64,000 bases of DNA, taken from assembly GCF_000711695.1 (NCBI RefSeq), contig NW_013546952.1, positions 34,190 to 98,189 on the forward strand. Reading direction: 5' to 3'. Positions 12,661-64,000 of the stretch are shown in pieces; the stretch's first letter is position 1; each line of letters begins with the position of its first letter. The stretch comes from Tilletiaria anomala UBC 951 (lineage: Eukaryota > Basidiomycota > Exobasidiomycetes > Georgefischeriales > Tilletiariaceae). The position numbers and the translations under genes are program-made. The notes under the pieces were generated by a model. The model had not been told where the DNA came from. It made no database searches and saw nothing but the letters and a program-made list of their open reading frames with translations.

Positions 12661-14356
12661 GCTTAGGATGGGTCGGCTGCTGTTCTCGGGCGAGGGCGAT
12701 AGGCATGCAACTACTCGGGGCACGATGAGGTGGCTGTCGATGAGGATGGAGCGAGGTGGACCTGCCTGCGCGGTGCAAAAATGATTCACCGAGCTTAGAG
12801 CGGAAGAAGCGGGAGACTGGTGCAGTGCCGTCCTAGCCCGATGACGGATGACAATGAGGCGCCCGCCAGCTCTGGTACAGTCACGGAGGGATGAGCGCAA
12901 CGAGCAATATCTGGGCCCATTTGACTCTAGAATGGGCCTCTTCACACGAAAAAATGGAGAAAGCCCCGAAGCCTTACTTCTCGCTGCACTCTCACTATTC
13001 TGGCAATGAACGCCCATACACAGGCTTTCGTCAGTCATCGGTGCGACCGGGTTCTGTATATACACACACCATGTGAGGTCAGGATAACCCAACATCAAAT
13101 CAACCACGTAAATATCAACGCCGTACCCCTCGATGGCCACTTCAAGCTACATCAAGAGGGGCAAATATACAATGCAGGGGCCCATCGAGATGTCACCCAG
13201 TGGCCGTGTCGATGCGCGACGTGCTGCTGAGTCCGAAAAATTAACCTTGAGGATCGACCTGGGCCCTGCGAAGGGTCAGAGGCGCGGAGCTGGAGGCCTC
13301 TTCGAGCATGCATCCCCATGGCTGCCTTTACCCATATCAGAAGCTGCACTTCTGGATCTACTTCGAGGAATGTACCTTTCTATCTCTAAGCAGCAGACTT
13401 GGAGCACGCTATCTCCACATTCTGGCGCGCCGGCCAGTCAGCTGCCGTACTCATCGCGCGGCACGAAAGCGCAGCACGTGTTGTCAGGAGTCTACCATGC
13501 AAAGAGGTTCTGCTGTGTCCTATTATGGAATGGTGAAAGGTCTGGCTATCGTCGGCAACTCTTTCGCACACGCGACAATCTGCACACCGCAGCACCGTCC
13601 ACTGGCGATGAGCTGGGTCCTGGGTGCAGTCCTGGAAGCTATTGGCAGGTGTATCCTATTATTGGAACTAGCTTTGGTTGAGACCTGAATTGACTATTTT
13701 AAGCTTGGACTGTAAGACGAGCGTTGAGGTCAGTTAGATGAATGATGGGAATTCCTGAAGCAAGTTTGCGCAGCTGCTCTCGACGTCAACTTAGTGTCTC
13801 TTGGACTCCCCCCCTGCGCCGCACTAAACTCTCACCGGCGCGGATACGCCGCACGTCCACCGCCACGGCATGACTCTGAGCTATGTAGAGCATAACCACT
13901 AGAGAAGGTATACTTTGGACTGACTGGCCAAATGTTTGCTCCAAAGGTGATGTTCCAAACGAGTAGGCTCGCCAAACATCCGCTCGGCTGAGATTGGTCC
14001 CTGCGACAGCAAAGTGTCGCGAACGAGACCCGCAGGCGTTTCCCCTCCCTCGTCAGCCATCCAGGCGCAGCTCCGCGCCGCGCCGCGTATACATATGTAT
14101 TACTCGGAAACACGACATTGAGCCCCCCCCCGCAGAAACGGGATTTCGGCCGAGCGCAAACAAGAAAGGGCGCAGCACTGGGGACCTTTAAGCACATATC
14201 TCTCTGGCATACAACGAGGCCTCTGGGCATGCACATCGGCATCCTCGCCTGAGCGCCGCGCGCGATCTGCAGCCGCAGCGACGTGCCCTTCCCGTGTCTG
14301 TCGCTTCCGCGTAACCCACGCACGACTTTGCTCCGCGCAAACAGCGCCGTGCCACG
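12661..14356. other. Divergent upstream region, Mam3-like and DUF1765 genes
   Basis: About 1.7 kb separating two divergent starts, so it should contain both promoters. An ATG-initiated 182-codon plus frame at 13133-13681 has no recognisable domain and biased composition; I treat it as probably non-coding. A run of nine or ten C lies near 14123-14131. No RNA gene was seen. Confidence 0.5.
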
Positions 14357-17300
14357 ATGCAGCCGCACCCGCGGGCAAACGCTGCGCACAATGCAGGAGC
14401 TGCGTCGTCTGGCACCATGCGCAACGCAAACGGCAGCAGCAGCGCTGTTGCCAATGGCTACCATGAGGACCACCCCGCAGGCCCTATCCTGCCGCCTGGA
14501 GCGCACGCAGCGCCGCTGATTGCACGTGGTCCGCTGCCGCCCTCGCTTCAATTCGGCCAGTCACGCATCCACGACCGGCCGCAGTCATCCGTATACGGGC
14601 CATCCACCTCGCAAGGGTTCGGGTTCAAGACCTCATTCGACTCGTCATACAGCGGCCGCAGCCCGTTGCCTAACGCGCTCGGGATATCGCCGACCTCAGC
14701 CAAAGGTGCCGCCGGTGCCGATGGTTCGTGGTCCGGTGGCTCCGGGCGCACGTCTGCCCTTGGTTCAGAAGTAGGGGGGATCGGAAGGAAGGGCTCGGTC
14801 GCAAGTCTCGAAAATGGTGTTAGCCCAGGTTCAGGCAGCAGCCCATCGTCGAGCAGGGCCGGTGGTGGCGGCAGCGCCATCCGCTCACCGGATGGACGCG
14901 TCCTCTTCCTCTCCACACCATCCCCTTCTTCCCGTTCACGCTTCTCGTCAAGTAGCAGCACAGGCTTCATGATGCCCATCAGCGGCACCGGTGCGAGGCA
15001 GAAGGTCTCCATCGTCAATCCCGGCCAGCGGAAGAAAGCGGCGATGGCTGCAGCCAACGGCACGGATTTCGCCCGGTGGCCAGAGGAGAAGAAGCGGGGA
15101 AACGACCAAGCACAGGAGAACGCGAACGCTGCTGGCGCAGCTACGGGTGCCCATGAAGGCGCGGATGCCAGCGGCACCGCGGGCCCCTCACCTGCAAACG
15201 GAGGAAGCATGGCGCAGGTCAAGATGGCAATGAGCGCAAGGACGTACTCTACCACTGCTCCTAGGCAGGGGCAATCGCTGCGCGCGTACAACGCGGCTAT
15301 GAAGAAAGCGCAAGCGGCCAATGGCAGCGCAAGCGGGACCGCGGCGCCCACCTCATTCGAGGCGGGGCCTCAGGATTTCATTCTTGGTAGCACGTCCGCT
15401 GGGCAAAACGCTTCACGCTCGAGCTCCATTGATGGCGGCTTCAGAGGCAGCCCAAACGGAGCAGCCGCACCATCCGCACATGCTGCGCCTGTGTCTGGCA
15501 CACTGGATGGAGAGTACAGGGGCCCGGTCAGCATCGCGAGCCTGCGTGCAGCGAAATCCAAGCGCGACGCGGCTGCTGCCGTCGCGTTCCCTGCTAGTGT
15601 GGACACGACTAGTGCCCCAGAATATTCAACATCGGGATCCACGTCGGGTCCTTCCGAGGCTTTGTCAGCTGCTGCGGTTGCTGCTACAACGAGCAGCGGC
15701 CTCACACATGAAACACATAGCAACCGCTTGAACACACGGCCGACCGAGCGCAACATGCCCACAAGCCTCACGCCTGGCTCACCATCGGCGACCAGCGACA
15801 GCACGAGTTCAGGCGGCTTGCTCGTAGGAAGGCTCGGTGAAGATGGTGCTGGCGGTGCCGCACCCATGATTGACTTCGAGCTGCCAAGCGAATCATTCTT
15901 CTCCATGGCTTCACCAAACGGGCGCTCGCTGCAGCCTTCTCAAGACGACACGCTCGACACTTCTCCCGAGACTGATGCCGATAAAGCTCTGCCTCCGACA
16001 CCAAAGACACCTGTATCCGGCCGGCAATCTCACCACCAACAGCAGCAGCAGCAGCAGTCCCCGAGCAAGGCTGCCGAAGAAGCCAGTTCGAGCCAAGAGA
16101 GCTTGAAGCTCAACCCGCTGTCGCATGGCGTGTCCGATACCGCATCTGACACCAGCCACGAGAGTGCAAAGGGTACACCGGACCGAGGACGCGCCCTGCC
16201 TCAGAAGCCGATGCGTTCGCCCGAACGACCTGCCGCTTCGGCGCTCACGCTCAAACCAGGTACGCTTGCGCGCCTGGAGAGCAGCGATTCGCGCGCGACG
16301 ACGACTAACGAGGCAGTCATGCTGCAACCCGCCTCTGCTGCAACTGCTGCAGCGAGCGTACCTCCCGGCGCCAATCTAGCGATGTATGTGCCTCCTGGTG
16401 CACTTTCGCGTACACGCAAGCGCAAAACCCATCCTGCGGATCAGCATGGAATCATACATAATGCATCTGCGGTGCGCAACAATAGTCGCTTCTCTGGCAG
16501 CACGACTGGGTCCTTCAGCACCCCTATCCGACCGGGGTTTGACATGCCGTCCAACATCGATGAGGAAGGTGAGGAAGAAGAGGAGGATGAGTATGAGGAC
16601 GAAGAGGAAGAGGAAGATGAGATTTGGGAGAACGACCATTCGGCTCTATCAATGCAAGGCTCTGTCCTACCCTCGAGCGCGTGGACGGAGGTGGAAGATG
16701 CGTTACTCCAATTCCAAGATAGTACGGCAGCGGGAATTGATAAGGGCACGCTTCTGCGCACCGTCCTGCTGCCATTCCTGCAGCTGGAGGTCGAGCGACC
16801 GTATGTTGCGCCAGATAGCGACAGCAGCTTCTCTGACGCGCGCAGCCGACGTGGCCTGTTCTTCGAATGGATTGGCCGGCTGCTCATCGAGCTGCAGCAC
16901 GTGCAGACGTCAGCAGATCGTGGAGCCATCCTCGAAAGCATCGCGTTCATACTTGAATCGCGCAACCTCTCGCCAAAATTCCTGCAGGAAGATCTTCAGG
17001 ACAGCCAGCGCTTCAACTCGGTCTTTGGACATATCCTCACCTACGCTATCGGCGAGCTCAATAAGAAGGGTGTATACCAGAACACGCTCATATTTTCGGG
17101 ACGTTTGCTGGGTGAGTGTCAGACGTGTACTCACGCTGCATCATTGCTCTGCTTCTGACATGATGTCTCCCTGCAGCCATCGCGTTCTTCCGCTTGGAGG
17201 GCGTCGCGAGCAAGCTTCTACGAGCGCTGCCTGTGAATCGGTTTGCCCTCGAGAGAATTGCGGCAGAGGCTTCGTGGGAAGAAATGCAGCCGCGCGACTT

Positions 17301-39835: not shown

Positions 39836-42518
39836 ATGCCAGCGGCAACTTCCAGCGTCTGCGTGGAGTGCAAGGAAAAGGCTGGCCGATACAAGTGTCC
39901 AGTCTGCCACCAACAGGGCATCACATGCAGTCTCACATGTAGTAAGGCACACAAGGAGAATGCTCATGCAAGCTCCTCCAACCCGTCTGCGGGGCCGAAG
40001 CTCAGCAGGGGCAGCAGTACCACGGCCGTAGTTGCCTCCCAACCATCAACGAGCAAGCTTGGGAACGCGTCTGAGATATCCGAGCCTACCTTAGTCACAA
40101 AAGCAAACAGCGATAAGGGGCTCTATGAGCTCAATCAGGACTCGCTTTTATCCGACTACTTGTTCCTATCTCACATGTCACGCAATGTCAGCTCTATCGG
40201 CCGTGCGCTCGCCTCCGAACAGTGGGCCGATGGCGCAATCAAAGCGAGCAAGTTGCAGACACACGCAGGACCGGCAGCGGCAGCTGAGCTCGCACTCTCC
40301 CAAAAGGAAGCAGAAGAGCGTCTGCTGCAAATGCAACAGCAGCAAGATAGAAGGGGAGCGAAAGGCAAGAGAAAATTAGGTGACGGTGCAGGACTTAATG
40401 GAAAGAGGCTTACTCGAAATCAAGAGAGAAGAGAGCTATTAGCCAAGCAATGTCGATACCTTCGACTGCCAATACTTTTTCTTCCTGAGGGCATGGGACT
40501 TGCAAAGAGCAATAGAAGTACATGGCTGAGAAGGTGAGAGGCGGGTAGGTGATCATGCTCAAGGAATTTGAATTAACGTCGTCGGTTGGAATCATTTTCT
40601 GTCTTTCAGAGAGAGCCAGATGGAATATACCGTGGAGTTCCGAACGCGCGCATTTACTTCGTCTTCCAAGGAGAATGAATGGAAGGCTACACTTCACCGG
40701 CAGCCACCCGAAGCCAACCCGGTGGTATGTTTACTGGAACACTTGGAGAGTCACAGTAGCGGCAGAATAGCGAAACCATCGCATTGCGGTGGCGCGAGCA
40801 TCAATAGTGTCAAGAAGCGGATTCGCGGAAAGAGAGATAGCTCCTCAGCATCGAAACAGCATGATCAGATGCTCGAGTCCGGTGCTGACCCTGGTAAAGG
40901 AGAATCCGATGGCGATGGAGATGGAGATGGAAAGCAAGGAAATTCGGCACTGGAAGCCGTGAGAGGTGACAATCTTCGCCAAGATCGAGAATGGCAGATC
41001 GAGGATGACGCCTGGTTGCCAATATTGCGAGACCTGCATGGCTGGAGCGCTACTCTAAATATCAAGGACCAGCAAACACTCTGCGGATTCTTGGAATCCC
41101 TTCCCGCGCCGACACCAATATCTCCGCTGAACAACAAGCGCTTACGGTTAATCAAGCCAGAATCTCTTCGCGGACTCTTTTCGCTATGTGTACCGCTTAC
41201 GCGCGTAGCACTGCGCAACGAAAGCAGCCAGAAGCATTTGGAATGGTACGAGCGGCAGCGCGCAAAAGGTGCGATCGACAAGTACACGCCCTTTCTTGAC
41301 ACGGCTGCTGGTGGCTCTTCAGAAAAGCAGGCGGAAGTTCTTTCTGCTTTTTCAAGGAAAACGAAGCCAGAAGAGACGGAAGAACAACATCAGCGATGGC
41401 TGGCCACCGTACCATCTGGGCCAAGAAGCATGCGTGCTACCAATCAGGAGACCTCGGTCGCTGCATCTGACTCCAGCCTTGTCAATACGGGTCTCCTGCA
41501 AAAGCTGTCAGCTCAGATGAAGGCGCTTTCCCGGGACCAGTCCCTGCCACCTGCAGAAAATGGTTGCGACACATCTGACAAGGCCCATGTCGAATCCATT
41601 AACATTAGTCAGGCATGGCCACTCGAAGCTGACGCAAAGGATCCTGCGGCTGCAAGTTCTGCACCGGCGCCCAGCAAGTCGGCATCTAGTCGCACACTGC
41701 TGCGAGTACCCATTCTCGACACAAATGAGCCGAGCAAAGGGATTCAAGAACTGCTGCAACACTGCCCCTCAGGCTATGGTGTTGTGGAGTATCCCATCTT
41801 CGAAATCTGGCTGCAACACGATCTCGATGCGGCTGTTCACCAAGGCTTGATCAAATTGCTCAATTTCGAGAAAGGAAAGAAGGCAAGTGGCGAACGCCAG
41901 GACGGCAGCGAGTCTAGTAGCGATGGCAGCGGGAGCGAAAGCGAGGTCGATAGCGGCTCTTCATCCAGTGGCTCTTCGACTGTCAGCTCTAAATCGAGTG
42001 AGATTCAAATCACCTCAGAAAGGGTAACTGCCACGGCAAAAAAGAGAGCTCTCGAGCCTGCATCTGTTGCGCCGGAAAGCGCACGAAAGACAGCCAAATG
42101 GGCTTCAGGGCCGAGCGTTGCCTTGGGCTTGGGGCACTACGGATCAGACACCGACTCGGACTCGGAAGCTGGAGATAACGCAGCTGCATCCGCTTCAAAT
42201 GAGGCTAAAGGAGAGCATTCTAAGGTTGAAACGCCAAGAGCTGATCTGGTCCATCCAGCGACAAAATTGATTGGAGCGTATGCGGAAAGTACCGATGATG
42301 ATGAAGAAGACGACGCTCCGCCAGACGGAGAAACTCACACTACGGCGCACGCTGGCCTTGCTTCTCTCGCCCAGCAACTTGGCTTTGCTCCGCCAAAGCC
42401 CCCCTCACCCCCAAGGTCACCTTTGACGACGCCGACCGAACGCGAAGGGCAGGCTGAGCCCGGCGTCGAAGGAGGAGTCTTTGCAGAAGATAGCCTGATT
42501 TGGTCGGACGAAGAATAG
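39836..42518 (+). CDS. BCD1: Box C/D snoRNA protein 1, zf-HIT
   Basis: Assembly factor for box C/D snoRNPs (Bcd1/ZNHIT6). Two exons: 39836-40533 and 40610-42518, giving 868 residues. The N terminus has the HIT zinc finger: CVECKEKAGRYKCPVC, then TCSLTCSKAH. Next come LLSDYLFLSHM and the family stretch RNQERRELLAKQCRYLRLPILFLPEGM, continuing across the intron into the beta-rich MEYTVEFR segment, as in other Bcd1 proteins. The rest, from about residue 290, is much longer than in yeast (366 residues): a helical domain with ILDTNEPSKGIQELL and YPIFEIWL, then Ser-rich, acidic and basic tracts ending EDSLIWSDEE. The late segment LLQHCPSGYGVVEYPIFEIWL is also conserved in Bcd1 C termini. Divergent from RRP9. 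Confidence 0.9.
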
Positions 42519-56002: not shown

Positions 56003-59000
56003 CTATTGGGCAGCCACGCTGGCCATGTATTCCATGAGTGCTGTGAGGAACGTCTCCGAGATCGATGAAAAGTAGAATTCGTGCTCTGCATTGTGTGCGC
56101 TCACGACATTGTGCGCGATTTCATGCGCAACAGAAAAGTATGTCGAGATCAGTGGTTCGGAAAGCTTTCCTTCCTTGACGAGGTCATCGTGCCACTCCTT
56201 GTAGTATCGGAAATTGAGGAAGATTGTGCCGCCACGGTTGAAAGCAATGTTGGGGCCAGAAGTGTCTGCGAAGACATTCAAAGCACGCGGGTCAAGGCGG
56301 AAGATGCGGCCGATGGGTTTGTAGACCGTGTTGATAAGTCGTTGTAGCGCTTCGCCGTTCTCAGAGAGCATCTGAGCGGGCTCCAGATCAGGACTGAGGA
56401 AGAACCTCATTCCTTCGATCTCGCCCGCGAGCCGTAGATCTGTCGCCACACCAGTCACGTCGCAGTAACTGCTGCTTGCTTCTCGCACTTCTTGCACTTG
56501 CGCTTCGGACTGGATGCTCTCAGAAGCGTCCGGTCGCGAAGCCTGCACAGCCTTGATAACGTTGTTCTTGATATTCGCCATTGGCGTTACCACATCGCTC
56601 TGCGCCGGTAGTCGTGGCGGGCATGTCACGCCTTGCGATCGTCCAGCTGCAGCAACTGCATTCAAAGACCCTTCGCTTCCCCAACCTCCAGGTACAGAAC
56701 CACTGCGCTCGATGGAAGATGTACCAGCGGCAAGCGAAGAGTACGGCTCGTTGGGCTTTCGAGACTGCATAAAACGGCTGCGCCATGACGACAAAAAGCC
56801 TTGGTGGTCCGAATCCCGCTCGTGGGCCGTCGCTTGCGGCCCGGGCATCATTCCTTCCGGTTTCCGCGGGTAGGGTGTATTCAGCAATGTGTTTGTTGCG
56901 TTTTGCAGATGGCTGTCTTTCTGCGCGCGCAGGATCGCATCAAGATGCGCTGGCTCGGCATCAGGGAACATGGAGGTCAGCTCCCCTGTCCACTTGCGAT
57001 AATCCTTCTCTGTAGGCTCAGCTAGGCGGGCAAGCTCTTCATGTTGTTTCGCTTCTCGCATTTTGCCTTCCTCGGCCTCTCGATCGGCTTTTCGTTGCTG
57101 CAAGATCTTGTCCACATGAAAACTGGTGATTGAATAGAACAGAGACTATGTCAGTAATGATCTTAAACACAACGATCTTTCTCCACATACCCTCTCCTCT
57201 TCAGATTGCGCAGAGACGTCGACAGCAGTGTCATGTAAAGCAGCACCTCTTGCAGGTGTTGTCGGGCGACCAGGTGGCGAGTGAGGGAGAATGCGACCTC
57301 AAACCAGTCAATCTCTGTGTTGGAGGCTATGTGGAGTACCAGGCGATCGTTGTTAAGGGCCGTCATGGCTGATGCACGCTGTACATTCTGTTCTTGCAGC
57401 TGACCGAATCGAAGCGTTCGCGTATGACGCAGGCCCTCGCCATCGACTTCCACCACATCGAGGAATTTCTTGAGCCATTCGGAATCGTGTCTGATTTCAC
57501 TTCGGCCAATCGACTTTTGTTCGAAGAGGAATAGCGGTGTACGCTCAAGGACGAGCGTCTTCACCTCGGTCGCCAGGTTGGTGCCAGTCATTACTCGCCC
57601 CGCAGTGGCGAAACGCTCCTCGATCAGTCTGCTGAGACGGGGAGAGCCCAGTTGTCCGTAGACTGCAAATGTACAAGCAACAGGTTTCAGTTCTGGCGCT
57701 CGAGCAGAACTGTACTGCGCGCCACTCACGATTCTCCTCCAACAGGTCTTCATGCGGAGCAAAATAAAGACTGGATGCGAAGAGCATACGAGAGGTAGCG
57801 TCATCGTCGATGACGATTTCGTCCGGTCTCTTCAGGTCATAGACTAGTGTTCCTGTGTCCACGTCAGCGTCATCGTCCTCGTCGATGTCGATCAGACTTG
57901 TCGACTTTGTCGTTGACGCTGGCATAGCTTTGGCTCCAAGTAAGAATGGCGAGCGCTTCATTTGCGAGCGTAGAGGACTGCGGATGCGATTCCAGTTGGA
58001 AGCAATTTGTCGAAGGATGGTCTTGTACGCGTCTGGGCCGCCGAGGATAGTGTAGAACCTCTGGGGGTCAGCCACAAGCTTTTGCGCGACCTCTTCGATG
58101 CTGGGTTCCTTGCTGACACCACAGTTTCGCAGGAAGGCGCCAGCCTTCGTACCATAGTCGCAGTAGAGGAAGATGTCTTTGAACTGCGGGGTCTCGCTCT
58201 CTCCGCCAAAATAGCAACTCGTTGGAGCAGCCAGAATGACTTCATGCTCCTCTGCTCCTCGGATCCGCTGCTTGACAGGGATGAACTCGGCCTGACCGAG
58301 GACGCTGAAATCACTCAGGGTGAATTCGGTGCACGTCGAGAGGTACTCGAAGATCTTGCGTGCGAGGTCCGGTTCCTTGGTCGGCTGATTCACAAGCTTG
58401 GCCATGAGCAAAGCCGCAGGCGGATCTCTGCGGAGCTGCAGTTTCTCTGACCAAGCAGGAGGGAGGTCCTGTTTGACAACCGGGAAGCCTAGGATGGCTG
58501 CTCCCTCGTTCGTGTACGCGTTGATTGGGGTGCAAAGATGGGGGCTGGTCTTGAGCGTCAGCGTGTCGGTCACTGTGCATGGGACGAAGGAGAACACTGA
58601 GGCCACCTTCAAGCTATAAATGTTTCGATAGACAGAGTCGAAGCGCTCGAAGAGGTACTCGAGCGCCTTCTCCCTCCGCGGCTGGTCACTCTCATCAGCT
58701 GCGAGCTTGAGCAACTCGTCGAGCGGCGGATGCCGCTGCAGTCCAAGCTCGAAGACGAATTTGGCTTCGTCTGAGCCTGATCGCCATGGCTTGCCTGGCC
58801 AGTCGAGCAAAGGCAAGCCCAGGGCCTTGTGCGCCAGCGTGGGCTCGTAAAGCTGGGAAGCACAATAACGGACGATCTTTGGCTTGCCGTCTTTACCAGA
58901 TGGCCCCACCTCGCCTTCCTTCGGCAGCATAGCAGTCTTGATGAGCCGGTCTTTCTCCAGGGTTGCCAAGCTGCCTTTGTTGGTTGCGAGGTACGCGAGC

Positions 59001-62000
59001 AGATCGACATGCGACCAGTTGCCGGCGGAGATGAGACGGTCAAAGATCATCTGCAGCTCGACGTGCTTGCGCACCTGTAGAGCTGTCAAGAGCTTCTCCA
59101 GGTTGCCCTTGACTGTCGCGGCAGGGAATGCGACAATTGGGAGGTCCTCGAAAAGCGACACGTTGGCGAAGTACGCATCGCTCGGCAGCTTAATTCCTTG
59201 TTTGGTCGGCACGCAAGCGACGCGGGACAGCATGTCGGCGATGATCTTCTGCCGCTCTGCCGAGACGGAGCCCCAGGCACGCGCGAGGATGCTAAAGAAC
59301 TTTTCACAGAATGATGCATTCGTGCACACGTCCGTGTCCGGCGCGCTCCCACCGGCGCCTGAATGACTGCTGATGCTTATGATGTGCTGCACCCAAATGT
59401 CGACAGGCAGCTCTTGCCACCCAAAGACATGCAGCAGCTCGTTCGTGCTGAGATTGCTTGTTACGGCGTACGCAAGGCAGGTCTGAGGAAGCGGGACGTC
59501 GGAAGGGATGCGCGCAGGGTTGAGCCAGTATCGCACATTTATTAGCGGTTGGATCGTTTCTGTCATGCCCGCGGCATCGTTCGACGGTGGGATGCGGCAC
59601 ATAGCGCTCTGCACGAGCCGGGCACGTAGGCCGGCGTCATAGCTGGGATGTGCCGCGACGCTGATCCACCACTGCAAGCATGCAACCATCTCGAGCGGCG
59701 CAAGCGCGCGTTGCGTGAGCTCGGTGAAGACGTCGTCCATCATGATATCCTGCACGAGCGCGCGGCTGCGCACTTGCGCGACGAATCCTGCGGCCTGCTC
59801 GACGTGCTCGAACGGGAGCGTCGGGAGATCCTTAACGAACTGCGCGAGCACGGCGTTCGGGTAGCGCACAGCGGCCGAGTGTTTGGGGCCGACGGTGGAC
59901 ATGAGCGTGATGGTGCTCTGGCGCGCACAGGAGAAGAAGCACGCCTCGAGCGTTTTCTGGACGCGTGACGACGGTGATGAGGGGCGAAAGGTGAAGAAAC
60001 GCATGATGTGCAGCGCGCGCGCGAGCAGCCACTCAGCGCTCTTGTCGTCCTTTCCGTCCGCGGGGCTTGTGTCGGTGCCGATCCCCTCGGTCCACAGTTG
60101 CGCAATGTCTGCGAGCTCAGCCTCGTAGACGGCGCGGGCAACGTAGCCGCCGATGCTGAGCAGCTCGAGGTTCCACTTGGCGCAGTAGCGGTCGACAAAG
60201 TCCATCGACTCGCGCTCGACGGTCGGGATGAAGCGTGCGGCGATGTGGCCCGAGAAGGAGGTGGTCTGGTGCGTCCGGAAGCCGATGAAGACGTTTCCCA
60301 GCTCGTTCAGGCGCGGCATGAGGCCATCGAAGATCTGTCGCACCCCGCTAGCTTGTTTATTCAGACCACCCCCGGCGCCATCCACCTTGCCGTCAGGGGT
60401 ATCTTGGAATGACGCGTCGTACTCGTCTTTGCCGGTGAAGATCAGGCTCAGCTGTGTGCGTTTCGGCGGTGGCTTCTTGGTGCTGCGCTCAATCTCACGT
60501 TCGAAGGCGCGGTCCACCGAGACGATGACGGTCGCTGTGGCGATGCGCAGATGTACGGACGACTCGACGAGGTCGAAGGGCGAGGTGTGGGCCTTTTCCG
60601 AAGCGGAAGCGCTAGAGGCCGCTCTCCCCTCATTATGAACAGCAGCAGCAGCTACTTCTCCGTTGCCGTTGGGCAGAAGCTTCTGTTTGTCGCTTGTAGG
60701 TGCAGATGGTACTTTTGCCGCTGACGGCTTTTGTGATGATGACGAAGAGCTCTTGGTCCCTTGGGCAACTGCGCCACTACCGCTACCGTTACCGCTACCA
60801 AAGGCGCTCTTCAGGAACCCACTGATGCTGCTGCCACCGCTACTGCCGCTCCTCCCTCCGAGTGCGCTGCCCAGGAACCCGGCGGCAGCGGCAGCGGACG
60901 TGCTGGCCATGGCGGCGGCGGCAGCAGCGCCGCCGGGCCCGGCGCCGGTCAGCTTACTGGCGAGGCTAGCGAGGCGGCTCGCCTTGGCAGAGCGGCGCTC
61001 TTCGTCGTCTGCGAGCACGGCGCGAGCGACGCGCGCGTGCATATTGACGCAAGCGGCCCCGAGCGTGTCGACGCGCATCGTGCGCTCGGCACTCACAGCG
61101 CTGAGGTGCGGTGGCATGCGCATCGGCTGCGGCGGGGCGAGCGCCTTGCGGATTCGCAGCAACAAAGCGTCGTTCCAGTACAGCTCAACGTGGCGGACGC
61201 GCGCGGTGAACGTCAGCGACGTCGCAAGGAAGCGGCACAGAGCCATGGGTGTGTCCGGCAGCGGTGCCGGCTCGCGCAGGCGCATGTGGAACGTCGTCCA
61301 CGGCAGACCGTTGAAGGGGTTCGTGTCCGAGTCGGCCTGGTCGTCAGGCAGCGGTGAGTCAGCAGCATCCTGCCCTTGCTCGTGCCTCTGCCATTGCCCA
61401 TGTGACTGAGGCGCCGTTCTTGAACGGAAGGCGGGATTTTTGGCGCGCCGCGTGTAGAGTGCATCGCCCTTCCAAAAGAAGCCCATGAGGCTGTCGCCGG
61501 AAGAGACGATCGGCTCTTCACAGATGGAGAAAAGGCTGTAGAAGCCGACGCCAAACGCGCCAATACGGTCGGGGTCAGGATTACCTTCGGCGATGCGCTG
61601 GGAGAATTGGATCGATTCAGCATCGCGTCTCGCATTCATGCCTACATGCAGATGCGAGTCTTCATTTGCTTACCCTCAGTCTACTCCAGTCGTCCGCGCC
61701 GAAGACCTTGCCATCGTTCTTGAACGTCCAGTGATGTAACGGCGCCTTGAAGTCGGGCTGCTTGCGGTTGACACCGGTCGAGGAACGCTCAAGGTCCTCT
61801 GTTAGTCCGAGATCAGCGCGAGTGTCGAAGCGCAGCTGGCAGCACTCGGCGCCTGCGTCGTCAGCGTTCTGCAGCAGCTCGCGAAAGACGGTGAACTCGG
61901 CGGCGTAGCGGGCGAGAATCTTGTCGATGAGCGCGCGCTGGTTGACGGTGATCGCCTCCTCGATCACCTCGTCGCCTTGCGGGATGGCGTTTGCCTCCGC

Positions 62001-62123
62001 GCCTGCAGCCGACGAGGGCGACGACGATGCATCACCTGCGCTGTTGGCTTGTCTCGCGACCGCCGCGGGATCTGACTTAGGTGGCGCGAGGAGCGCGGCA
62101 GCGTTGAGTGCCGCTCTGGACAT
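56003..62123 (-). CDS. Sacsin-like GHKL ATPase protein (DUF3684-type) with CUE-like and HExxH segments
   Basis: Four exons: 61674-62123, 57730-61597, 57191-57662 and 56003-57122, giving 1969 residues. The N terminus is a histidine-kinase/Hsp90-type ATP-binding fold like that of sacsin: N-box RELLQNADDAGAE (81-93), FKNDGKVF then DW (134-146), and the lid glycines IGAFGVGFYS (162-171). An Ala/Ser/Gly-rich insertion near residues 360-480 interrupts the early part. The large middle (to about 1590) is helical and of unknown fold. Around 1640-1680, MFPDAEPAHLDAILR ... NTLL has the pattern of a CUE ubiquitin-binding domain. The C terminus has HEIAH at 1930-1934 followed by HNAEHEFYF, as in zinc metallopeptidases. 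The family is fungal and uncharacterised as far as I know. ATPase and family: confident; CUE and peptidase: inference. Confidence 0.9.
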
Positions 62124-62800: not shown

Positions 62801-64000
62801 ATGGCTGACAACGAAGAACAGCCGCAGCCACAGACCTCCGCCTCTCCGCCTCCGCCCGCTGAGGGCGCAACCGAGCCAGAGCCGCAGCTAGAGGTGGAGG
62901 ACGACGGGGCGCAAGGACACGGTGGCGAGGGCGAAAGCACCAAGCAGCCCTCTTTCTCCTCTTCTCAGGTAGATGCAGAAGTTGACGCAAATAGCCAAGC
63001 GATCGAGGCGGCTGCAGGTGCCTCACCCACCGCAGAGCAGGTAGCGCACGCCGCGGCAGAGGCGCCCAGCTCGCCGCCTGTCAGCGCTGCTCCTGTTGCG
63101 GATTTGACTCCGAGTAGATCTGCTGCTGTTGCCACCGCTTCAAAGATCGCTGCTCCTGCCACCGCCAAGCCCAAGACAACTGCACCGACAGGCCGCAGCA
63201 GCACGGCCGCTCCTTCCTCCTCTCCAGTCGTCAGACCCCTCACAGGCACAGCCGCAGGCTCTGCTGCGCGCCCAAGCGTCGCAGGGACTAGGACCACCAC
63301 TGTGGGTGCCACTAGCACTGGCGCCGCCTCCGCTGCCCGCAAGCTCAGCACGGCCACCTCCACCAGCGCAGCGGCAGCGGCAGCAGCAGCCCGGAAGCCA
63401 GCTGCGTCCTCCCGTCCCTCGGTTGCCACCACGGGTGCTTCCCCTGCTACCACTGCCGCTGTCCGCAAGACGACTTCTGCTGCCCCTCCGCGGTCTAGCG
63501 TCGCGAGCAGCTCGATAGGCGCATCTGCCGCCGCTCGCAAACCCGCCACGGCGGCCACTACTACTGCTGCGCGTACCGCGACAGCTGCGAGCGCGAGGCC
63601 CAGCAGCACGACTGGTGCTGGAGCAGCAGCAGCAGCAACCAAGCGTCCGTTGGGGAGTGCCAGCGCCAGTGCCAACTCCGCCGCTGCCGCCAAGCCTGCC
63701 CCTTCTGCCGGCGGCAGCAGCACTGCGGCCAAGCGTCCCGGCGCATCGACGACAGCCACCATCGCAACCCGGCCAACGACAGGTACACGCTCATTAACGG
63801 CTACAGCGGCAGCGGCCACAGGAAGGACTGTGGCCGCCACGATTCCGCGCAGCAGCAGTGCGCTGTCGACCAACAGCCGCAGCAGCGCCAGCGCCAGACT
63901 AGCTGCTGAGACAGCCGTGGCAAGAGACCTGCAGAGTGAGCTGGACGCCGCACATGCGCAGGTTGAGGCACTCAAGGGTGAGGTTGCCGATCTGCGGGGT
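62801..64000 (+). CDS. Ala/Ser/Thr-rich protein leading into a coiled coil (3' end beyond window)
   Basis: An ATG in ideal context (ACCATGG) opens a frame of 400 codons with no stop before the window ends. Residues 1-60 are acidic and Pro/Glu-rich. About 60-360 are Ala/Ser/Thr-rich with single Arg-Lys or Lys-Arg pairs before Pro or Leu at fairly regular intervals (ARKLS, ARKPA, VRKTT, ARKPA, TKRPL, AKRPG). From about residue 365 a heptad pattern starts (LAAETAVARDLQSELDAAHA, then VEALKGEVADL), so the rest is probably a long coiled coil. Such a basic disordered arm plus coiled coil suits a microtubule- or chromatin-associated protein, but that is a guess. No family recognised. Confidence 0.75.
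   Translation, partial: MADNEEQPQPQTSASPPPPAEGATEPEPQLEVEDDGAQGHGGEGESTKQPSFSSSQVDAEVDANSQAIEAAAGASPTAEQVAHAAAEAPSSPPVSAAPVADLTPSRSAAVATASKIAAPATAKPKTTAPTGRSSTAAPSSSPVVRPLTGTAAGSAARPSVAGTRTTTVGATSTGAASAARKLSTATSTSAAAAAAAARKPAASSRPSVATTGASPATTAAVRKTTSAAPPRSSVASSSIGASAAARKPATAATTTAARTATAASARPSSTTGAGAAAAATKRPLGSASASANSAAAAKPAPSAGGSSTAAKRPGASTTATIATRPTTGTRSLTATAAAATGRTVAATIPRSSSALSTNSRSSASARLAAETAVARDLQSELDAAHAQVEALKGEVADLRG

Follow-up and report, generated by a model that had tools for sequence, protein, structure and literature searches.

A fungal sacsin-family (DUF3684) protein with a predicted Wss1-like zinc-peptidase domain at its C-terminus

The protein considered here is encoded on the minus strand of a 64,000-nucleotide stretch of the genome of the basidiomycete Tilletiaria anomala UBC 951 (assembly GCF_000711695.1, contig NW_013546952.1, positions 34,190 to 98,189), called the window in what follows, and two described systems come close to it. 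The first is formed by the Wss1/WLM peptidases (MEROPS M80; PDB 5xbn, 5xbv, 5ln5, 5jig). Wss1 is described as a cofactor of Cdc48 which acts with Cdc48 and SUMO and is under cysteine-switch control (PMC4559962), the zinc ligands of yeast Wss1 are His115, His119 and His125, Glu116 lying close to a water (PMC5557861), and a peptidase survey of Aspergillus niger counts two M80 proteins (PMC7804941). The second system is animal sacsin, which consists of three ATPase modules followed by DnaJ and a C-terminal HEPN domain (PMC3710099). The human protein (SACS, 4,579 amino acids, aa) begins with an Hsp90-like ATPase belonging to the SACS family. The window protein resembles human sacsin in this ATPase, and would resemble it in a role as chaperone; it resembles Wss1 in an HExxH motif with a third histidine at +10 and, going by a prediction, may also do so in its fold. 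Unlike animal sacsin, it joins a single ATPase to DUF3684 and to a peptidase-like domain; unlike WLM proteins, it has no Pfam WLM match, and a sacsin-type ATPase is fused to it rather than Cdc48 recruited. The association with an ATPase and with modifiers of the ubiquitin type, Cdc48 and SUMO in the case of Wss1, would be a further common trait. With moderate confidence, we regard the window protein as a fungal sacsin-family (DUF3684) protein with a C-terminal Wss1-like zinc metallopeptidase which is probably able to cut.

Four exons, joined across GT..AG introns, give one open frame of 1969 aa. Exon 1 (61674..62123) contains the N-terminus and the first part of an ATPase of the sacsin/Hsp90 (GHKL) type: it matches Pfam SACS (PF25794) over exon aa 65-148 with an expectation value (E) of 1.3e-9 and 38.7 bits, against a cut-off of 32.8. 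The residues E82, N86 and D89 of the first ATPase helix are present within FRELLQNADDAGA (aa 80-92), NDG is found at aa 136-138, and GAFGVGFYS starts at aa 163, with GxxGxGF at aa 163-169; these motifs are read by the example of Hsp90. After intron 1 (61598..61673, 76 nt), exon 2 (57730..61597) provides the remainder of the ATPase, where a second SACS piece is weak (E 0.013), and DUF3684 (PF12449, 1060 bits against a cut-off of 27, best stretch exon aa 287-1288). By score, the window protein is a member of both families. The DUF3684 match stops where exon 2 ends, at position 1052 of the 1098 of the model, and the leftover model should therefore not be able to reach a domain situated at aa 1826. 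Then follow intron 2 (57663..57729, 67 nt), exon 3 (57191..57662), which is the segment after the DUF3684 match, intron 3 (57123..57190, 68 nt) and exon 4 (56003..57122), which comprises a linker, a CUE-like stretch, the peptidase-like domain and the stop codon. A previous sequence-only reading of this DNA, made by a model, had placed the sacsin-type ATPase of exon 1 and a C-terminal HEIAH motif in one protein, and this proposal holds; the HEIAH observation is confirmed with its coordinates and residue numbers.

The last 144 residues (aa 1826-1969; 56003..56437, stop codon included) form a domain common to the window protein and to two relatives, one fungal and one Lokiarchaeal, and the predicted structure suggests a Wss1-like zinc-peptidase domain. 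The terminus of exon 4 carries HEIAHNVVSAHNAEHEFYF at aa 1930-1948, which includes HEIAH (aa 1930-1934; 56111..56125), H1940 (56093..56095) and an additional histidine, H1944 (56081..56083). H1930 and H1934 would be zinc ligands and E1931 the catalytic base, while H1940, at +10, is the probable third ligand; H1930, H1934 and H1940 fit the HExxHxxxxxH zinc-site pattern of Wss1 (M80). The sequence-only reading had sought the third ligand among nearby acidic residues, in HNAEHE or SISE. H1940 appears likelier than these, because the zinc ligands of Wss1 show the identical +4/+10 spacing; moreover, the Lokiarchaeal protein has a Leu in the column of E1953 (SISE), and its Glu lies one column further on. 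The Phe which the WLM consensus has after its third His corresponds to His1944 in the window protein. Upstream, AFNRGGTIFLN (aa 1890-1900; 56213..56245) has its A, F, N, G, I and N invariant in all three sequences. In total 20 residues are invariant across the three, 13 of them (including AFN..G.I..N) outside the positions of the motif by which the relatives were found.

A single-sequence AlphaFold2 model of aa 1776-1969 was discarded (predicted local distance difference test, pLDDT, 37.9). With the three-row alignment of the window protein and its two relatives, the pLDDT is 81.6 and the predicted template-modelling (TM) score 0.74. The order of elements in this model is b-b-a-b-b-b-a-a-a; HEIAH ends the second-to-last helix, H1940 lies in the loop after it, and AFNRGGTIFLN forms predicted strands (residues 65-68 and 71-75 of the model) preceding the active-site helix. 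When the three-sequence model was compared by Foldseek with 350,542 PDB chains, the top five matches were all Wss1 (probability 0.99-1.00, E 0.025-0.047, TM 0.45-0.60), after which there is a gap to E 0.66. A zincin-type fold, for which Wss1 would be the nearest solved example, is supported at the level of a prediction. The HExxHxxxxxH spacing had been judged metzincin-, WLM-, SprT- or YgjP-like ahead of this search. The fold check suggested by the sequence-only reading came out with Wss1 chains first; its idea that the preceding sequence could form the edge strand of a metzincin- or gluzincin-like site stands in so far as strands are predicted ahead of the active-site helix within a zincin-type fold, but not as regards the nearest solved fold, which is Wss1. 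In a library of viral folds an unnamed protein ranks first (E 0.0029, TM 0.46/0.36), with SprT (0.10), an IrrE-like protein (0.49) and a WLM protein (0.93) lower down.

The relatives were obtained by scanning prokaryote genome contigs with HExAHNxxxxHxxxH written as degenerate DNA. This gave 69 loci, among which 64 have a motif free of stops, 10 of these 64 in frames of at least 500 aa. Two loci, L034 and L066, were judged by eye to be relatives from the flank upstream of the motif, and only these two were extended (as L086 and L079). The search motif fixes seven residues in both, including the counterparts of H1940 and H1944, so that the presence of the motif there, and of HE.AHN in all three sequences, is given by construction. 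The similarity outside the motif and the ATPase at the opposite end of the gene were not selected for. We consider that finding a sacsin-type ATPase at the far end of both genes, which were chosen by their tails, is stronger support than the match of the Lokiarchaeal tail itself. The ATPase-helix pattern EL..NA.DA occurs in one of the 69 loci, in an HtpG-like stretch (L019), the ATPases of the two relatives lying beyond the 8 kb scanned. Three further loci (L035, L052, L059) look by eye like metzincin-type enzymes and were not taken as relatives.

Five tblastn pieces with 30.5-37.4% identity link the first relative to aa 44-1947 of the window protein. The best conserved is the C-terminal one (aa 1772-1947, 37.4%, E 5.6e-27), the other four having 30.5-36.2%, with 32.9% over aa 1412-1620 in exon 3. 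Within the domain, 50 of the 117 aligned residues are identical, or 43 of 110 without the seven motif positions. The match is split over two frames, one of which (4052-2511), uninterrupted, contains the piece aligned with aa 1412-1620 as well as the HELAHN domain. Although filed under a "Deltaproteobacteria" metagenome-assembled genome (MAG), this locus looks fungal, because of the split match and because, beside the DUF3684-type gene, its contig bears genes for a fungal rhodopsin domain (7.6e-32) and for MMtag (6.7e-33). As to the public genome itself (MAG CPC1), the 294,724-base contig with fungal-type genes was probably mis-binned or is a contamination.

The second relative is an open reading frame (ORF) of 1520 aa (L079:5047-9606, minus strand) on a 793-kb contig of Candidatus Lokiarchaeota archaeon LW40_45, with a sacsin ATPase at its start and the domain HELAHNICPNHDKLH, containing HELAHN, at its end. 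Its N-terminus matches SACS with E 7.2e-7 and 29.7 bits, slightly below the cut-off of 32.8 (37.1 bits in a phylum-wide SACS search), and by blastp 36 of 118 residues are identical to the ATPase of the window (E 4e-10). A prokaryotic contig is favoured because of the neighbouring genes, which are of EamA, homocysteine-biosynthesis/CBS, cysteine-rich-domain, HTH-CBS and DUF3604 types. With a profile built from both fungal domains, hhalign finds the Lokiarchaeal C-terminus at a probability of 92.9 and E 3.6e-7, and the best score among 100 full shuffles of this tail was 20.6, against 46.3 observed. The sole Pfam listing of the domain is YgjP-like (PF01863, E 0.17-0.18, 22 residues at the motif), far under the cut-off (12.3 against 26 bits); the window domain has no such listing. 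In a PDB sequence search, the Lokiarchaeal protein found MraZ (0.013-0.016) and HtpG (0.11).

Alignment A1 finds the domain in one of 227 genomes of the Asgard phylum, which is the Lokiarchaeal source genome itself; hence descent and transfer are both possible. The Lokiarchaeal domain as single query (E 0.01) matched four of the 227, itself included, and the three others were rejected by eye (one has internal stops, one is PAS-like and one resembles a membrane peptidase). SACS matches eight of the 227 genomes, three over the cut-off. HExxH was not found in the other over-cut-off frames L089 (310 aa, partial) and L098. The latter (L098:2510-10003, minus strand) is a frame of 2498 aa with a sacsin-type ATPase and a long C-terminus. 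Three further SACS matches (L092, L094, L096) look HtpG-like, and L091, L095 and L097 yielded no row under the filter applied. Among the ten genomes reached through the loci, A1 matched one, the source of the fungal-looking locus. It matched 0 of 339 genomes in the phylum of an Oscillatoriales MAG, 0 of 345 in that of Hymenobacter, 0 of 216 in that of Methanocorpusculum, 0 of 201 in that of an Anaerolineae MAG and 0 of 174 in that of an Opitutia MAG, counts which would carry weight only with a known positive in the set. No relative was confirmed in viral contigs searched with the C-terminal domain, exon 2, A1 and the Lokiarchaeal domain. There, the four loci found with HExxHNxxxxHNxxH were judged by eye to be due to chance. 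In phages, five tblastn matches to Aeromonas phage tail-tubular proteins (E 0.2) were rejected. A tblastn search of plasmids gave no match.

Several results weigh against a Wss1-like peptidase shared by these three proteins. The motif in the relatives is not independent evidence, because both were retrieved by it. The Lokiarchaeal C-terminal match appears motif-heavy: when its tail was shuffled with the 15-residue motif kept, one shuffle in 100 reached the observed hhalign score, and blastp of the window protein against this C-terminus gives only E 0.004. The middle of the Lokiarchaeal protein shows nothing significant towards DUF3684 (hhalign aligned the ATPase only, and the blastp pieces have E of at least 0.013), while its GAMNLGALS deviates from GAFGVGFYS of the window, so that its ATPase may be altered. 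Pfam lists no zinc-peptidase family for exon 4, neither Pfam nor NCBIfam lists a peptidase family for the window domain, and at E up to 10 with filters on Pfam gives no family at all for this domain. In Foldseek, none of the 207 matches falls below E 0.001, for a model built on three sequences, and Wss1 is absent from the PDB sequence search made with the profile. We do not file the window domain as WLM (Wss1, M80), since no Pfam peptidase family is listed for it, WLM included.

What else could these sequences be? That the motif arose by chance in an unconserved tail, or through an error in the gene model, is extremely improbable. When the protein was shuffled 20,000 times at constant composition, HExxH turned up in 1066 shuffles (HExxHxxxxxH in 23), and alone it is weak evidence; it is lifted above chance because domain-wide similarity to the fungal relative surrounds it, and the uninterrupted frames of the relatives already contradict this explanation for the window and L086. 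Nor is the fusion a splicing artefact, because a single frame of the fungal relative holds HELAHN together with the match to aa 1412-1620, and a single Lokiarchaeal ORF holds ATPase and HELAHN. That the domain is a metzincin or a gluzincin rather than Wss1-like, with a metzincin-type His site or with E1953 (+19 from the second His) as third ligand, we find improbable. The profile search of PDB sequences returned, after TAL-repeat and coiled-coil noise, snake-venom metzincins at E 0.71-1.5 which have the HExxHxxxxxH spacing in common with it, and E1953 sits at a gluzincin-like distance; against this stand the five Wss1 chains ahead of the gap in Foldseek, the lack of a Glu aligned with E1953 in the Lokiarchaeon and the lack, in HEIAHNVV, of the Gly of the metzincin consensus. 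The window domain by itself found two unrelated PDB sequences (E 0.47 and 0.97). It is easier to imagine, though still quite unlikely, that the zincin fold no longer cuts and is retained for binding or for its structure, for instance to recognise the ends of ubiquitin or SUMO. The choice of both relatives by their motif leaves room for this; yet the window protein, which was not so chosen, has the full HExxHxxxxxH, and two relatives have intact motifs.

A different question is whether both ends work together. In our interpretation, H1930, H1934 and H1940 would bind zinc and E1931 would activate a water; the sacsin-type ATPase would bind or remodel clients that are damaged and perhaps marked with ubiquitin, and the Wss1-like peptidase tethered to it would cleave the clients so held. 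One chain would then do what Wss1 achieves by recruiting the Cdc48 ATPase, and an ATPase partner seems natural because Wss1 acts with Cdc48 and SUMO. It is somewhat unlikely, but to be taken seriously, that ATPase and peptidase are both functional and independent, the fusion merely joining them: the linker is long, and aa 1621-1771 are not covered by any tblastn piece in the fungal relative at E 1e-3. Nothing direct speaks against such independence, apart from the co-occurrence of both ends in the second fungal gene and in the Lokiarchaeon. The most ambitious version of the peptidase interpretation, a single-chain ATP-dependent protease in which an Hsp90/sacsin-type ATPase takes the place of the AAA+ unfoldase and is combined with a Wss1-like peptidase, already present in an Asgard archaeon and possibly pre-eukaryotic, is a tentative proposal which we hold to be on the unlikely side.

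Within the same linker, aa 1634-1684 (SMFPDAEP...NATNTLL; 56861..57013) weakly resemble a CUE (ubiquitin-binding) domain. The 51-aa piece matches CUE (PF02845) with E 0.21 and 11.7 bits, under the cut-off of 21.1; for longer pieces, Pfam gives Hera_DD and Tankyrase_bdg_C in its place, and the Vps9 CUE (1mn3) is the last of eight PDB sequence matches (E 0.7), beneath seven unrelated hexosaminidases. Just before the peptidase-like domain, Cys1817 (56462..56464) stands in SYCDVTG, aligned with TYCDST in the fungal relative. As Wss1 has a cysteine switch and this Cys is kept in the fungal relative, such a role for Cys1817 is a testable guess, which we offer as speculation.

Elsewhere in the window, a frame at 62801-64000, divergent to the sacsin-like gene and by eye rich in Ala, Ser, Thr and Pro, was without a match in Pfam at E 0.001, as far as it lies inside the window. 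The plus-strand open frames 14315-17155 (947 aa) and 40572-42515 (648 aa) have none at the thresholds applied.

Among the papers listed in the literature searched, we found no description of a fusion between a sacsin-type ATPase and a peptidase. This literature yielded no paper for DUF3684 by name and nothing for sacsin with HEXXH or with Asgard; sacsin with zincin gave unrelated passages, and sacsin with Wss1 gave papers on infection transcriptomes. In one article on sacsin (PMC3629688), the words "fungal", "plants", "archaea", "protist" and "peptidase" do not occur. One paper found for sacsin with fungi and metalloproteases names a fungal "Sacsin" transcript.

To our knowledge, ATP-dependent proteolysis is run by AAA+ unfoldases. 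If the fusion is what we propose, nature would have found another way of doing this, with a Hsp90/sacsin-class chaperone that carries a protease of its own. Loss of sacsin causes the human ataxia ARSACS (autosomal recessive spastic ataxia of Charlevoix-Saguenay), and sacsin would gain a relative whose output can be read. That a similar pairing exists in a Lokiarchaeon hints at a machine for protein quality control, which eukaryotes may have inherited or which may have spread by gene transfer. For the fungal family itself, the peptidase interpretation makes DUF3684, a domain of unknown function, directly testable.
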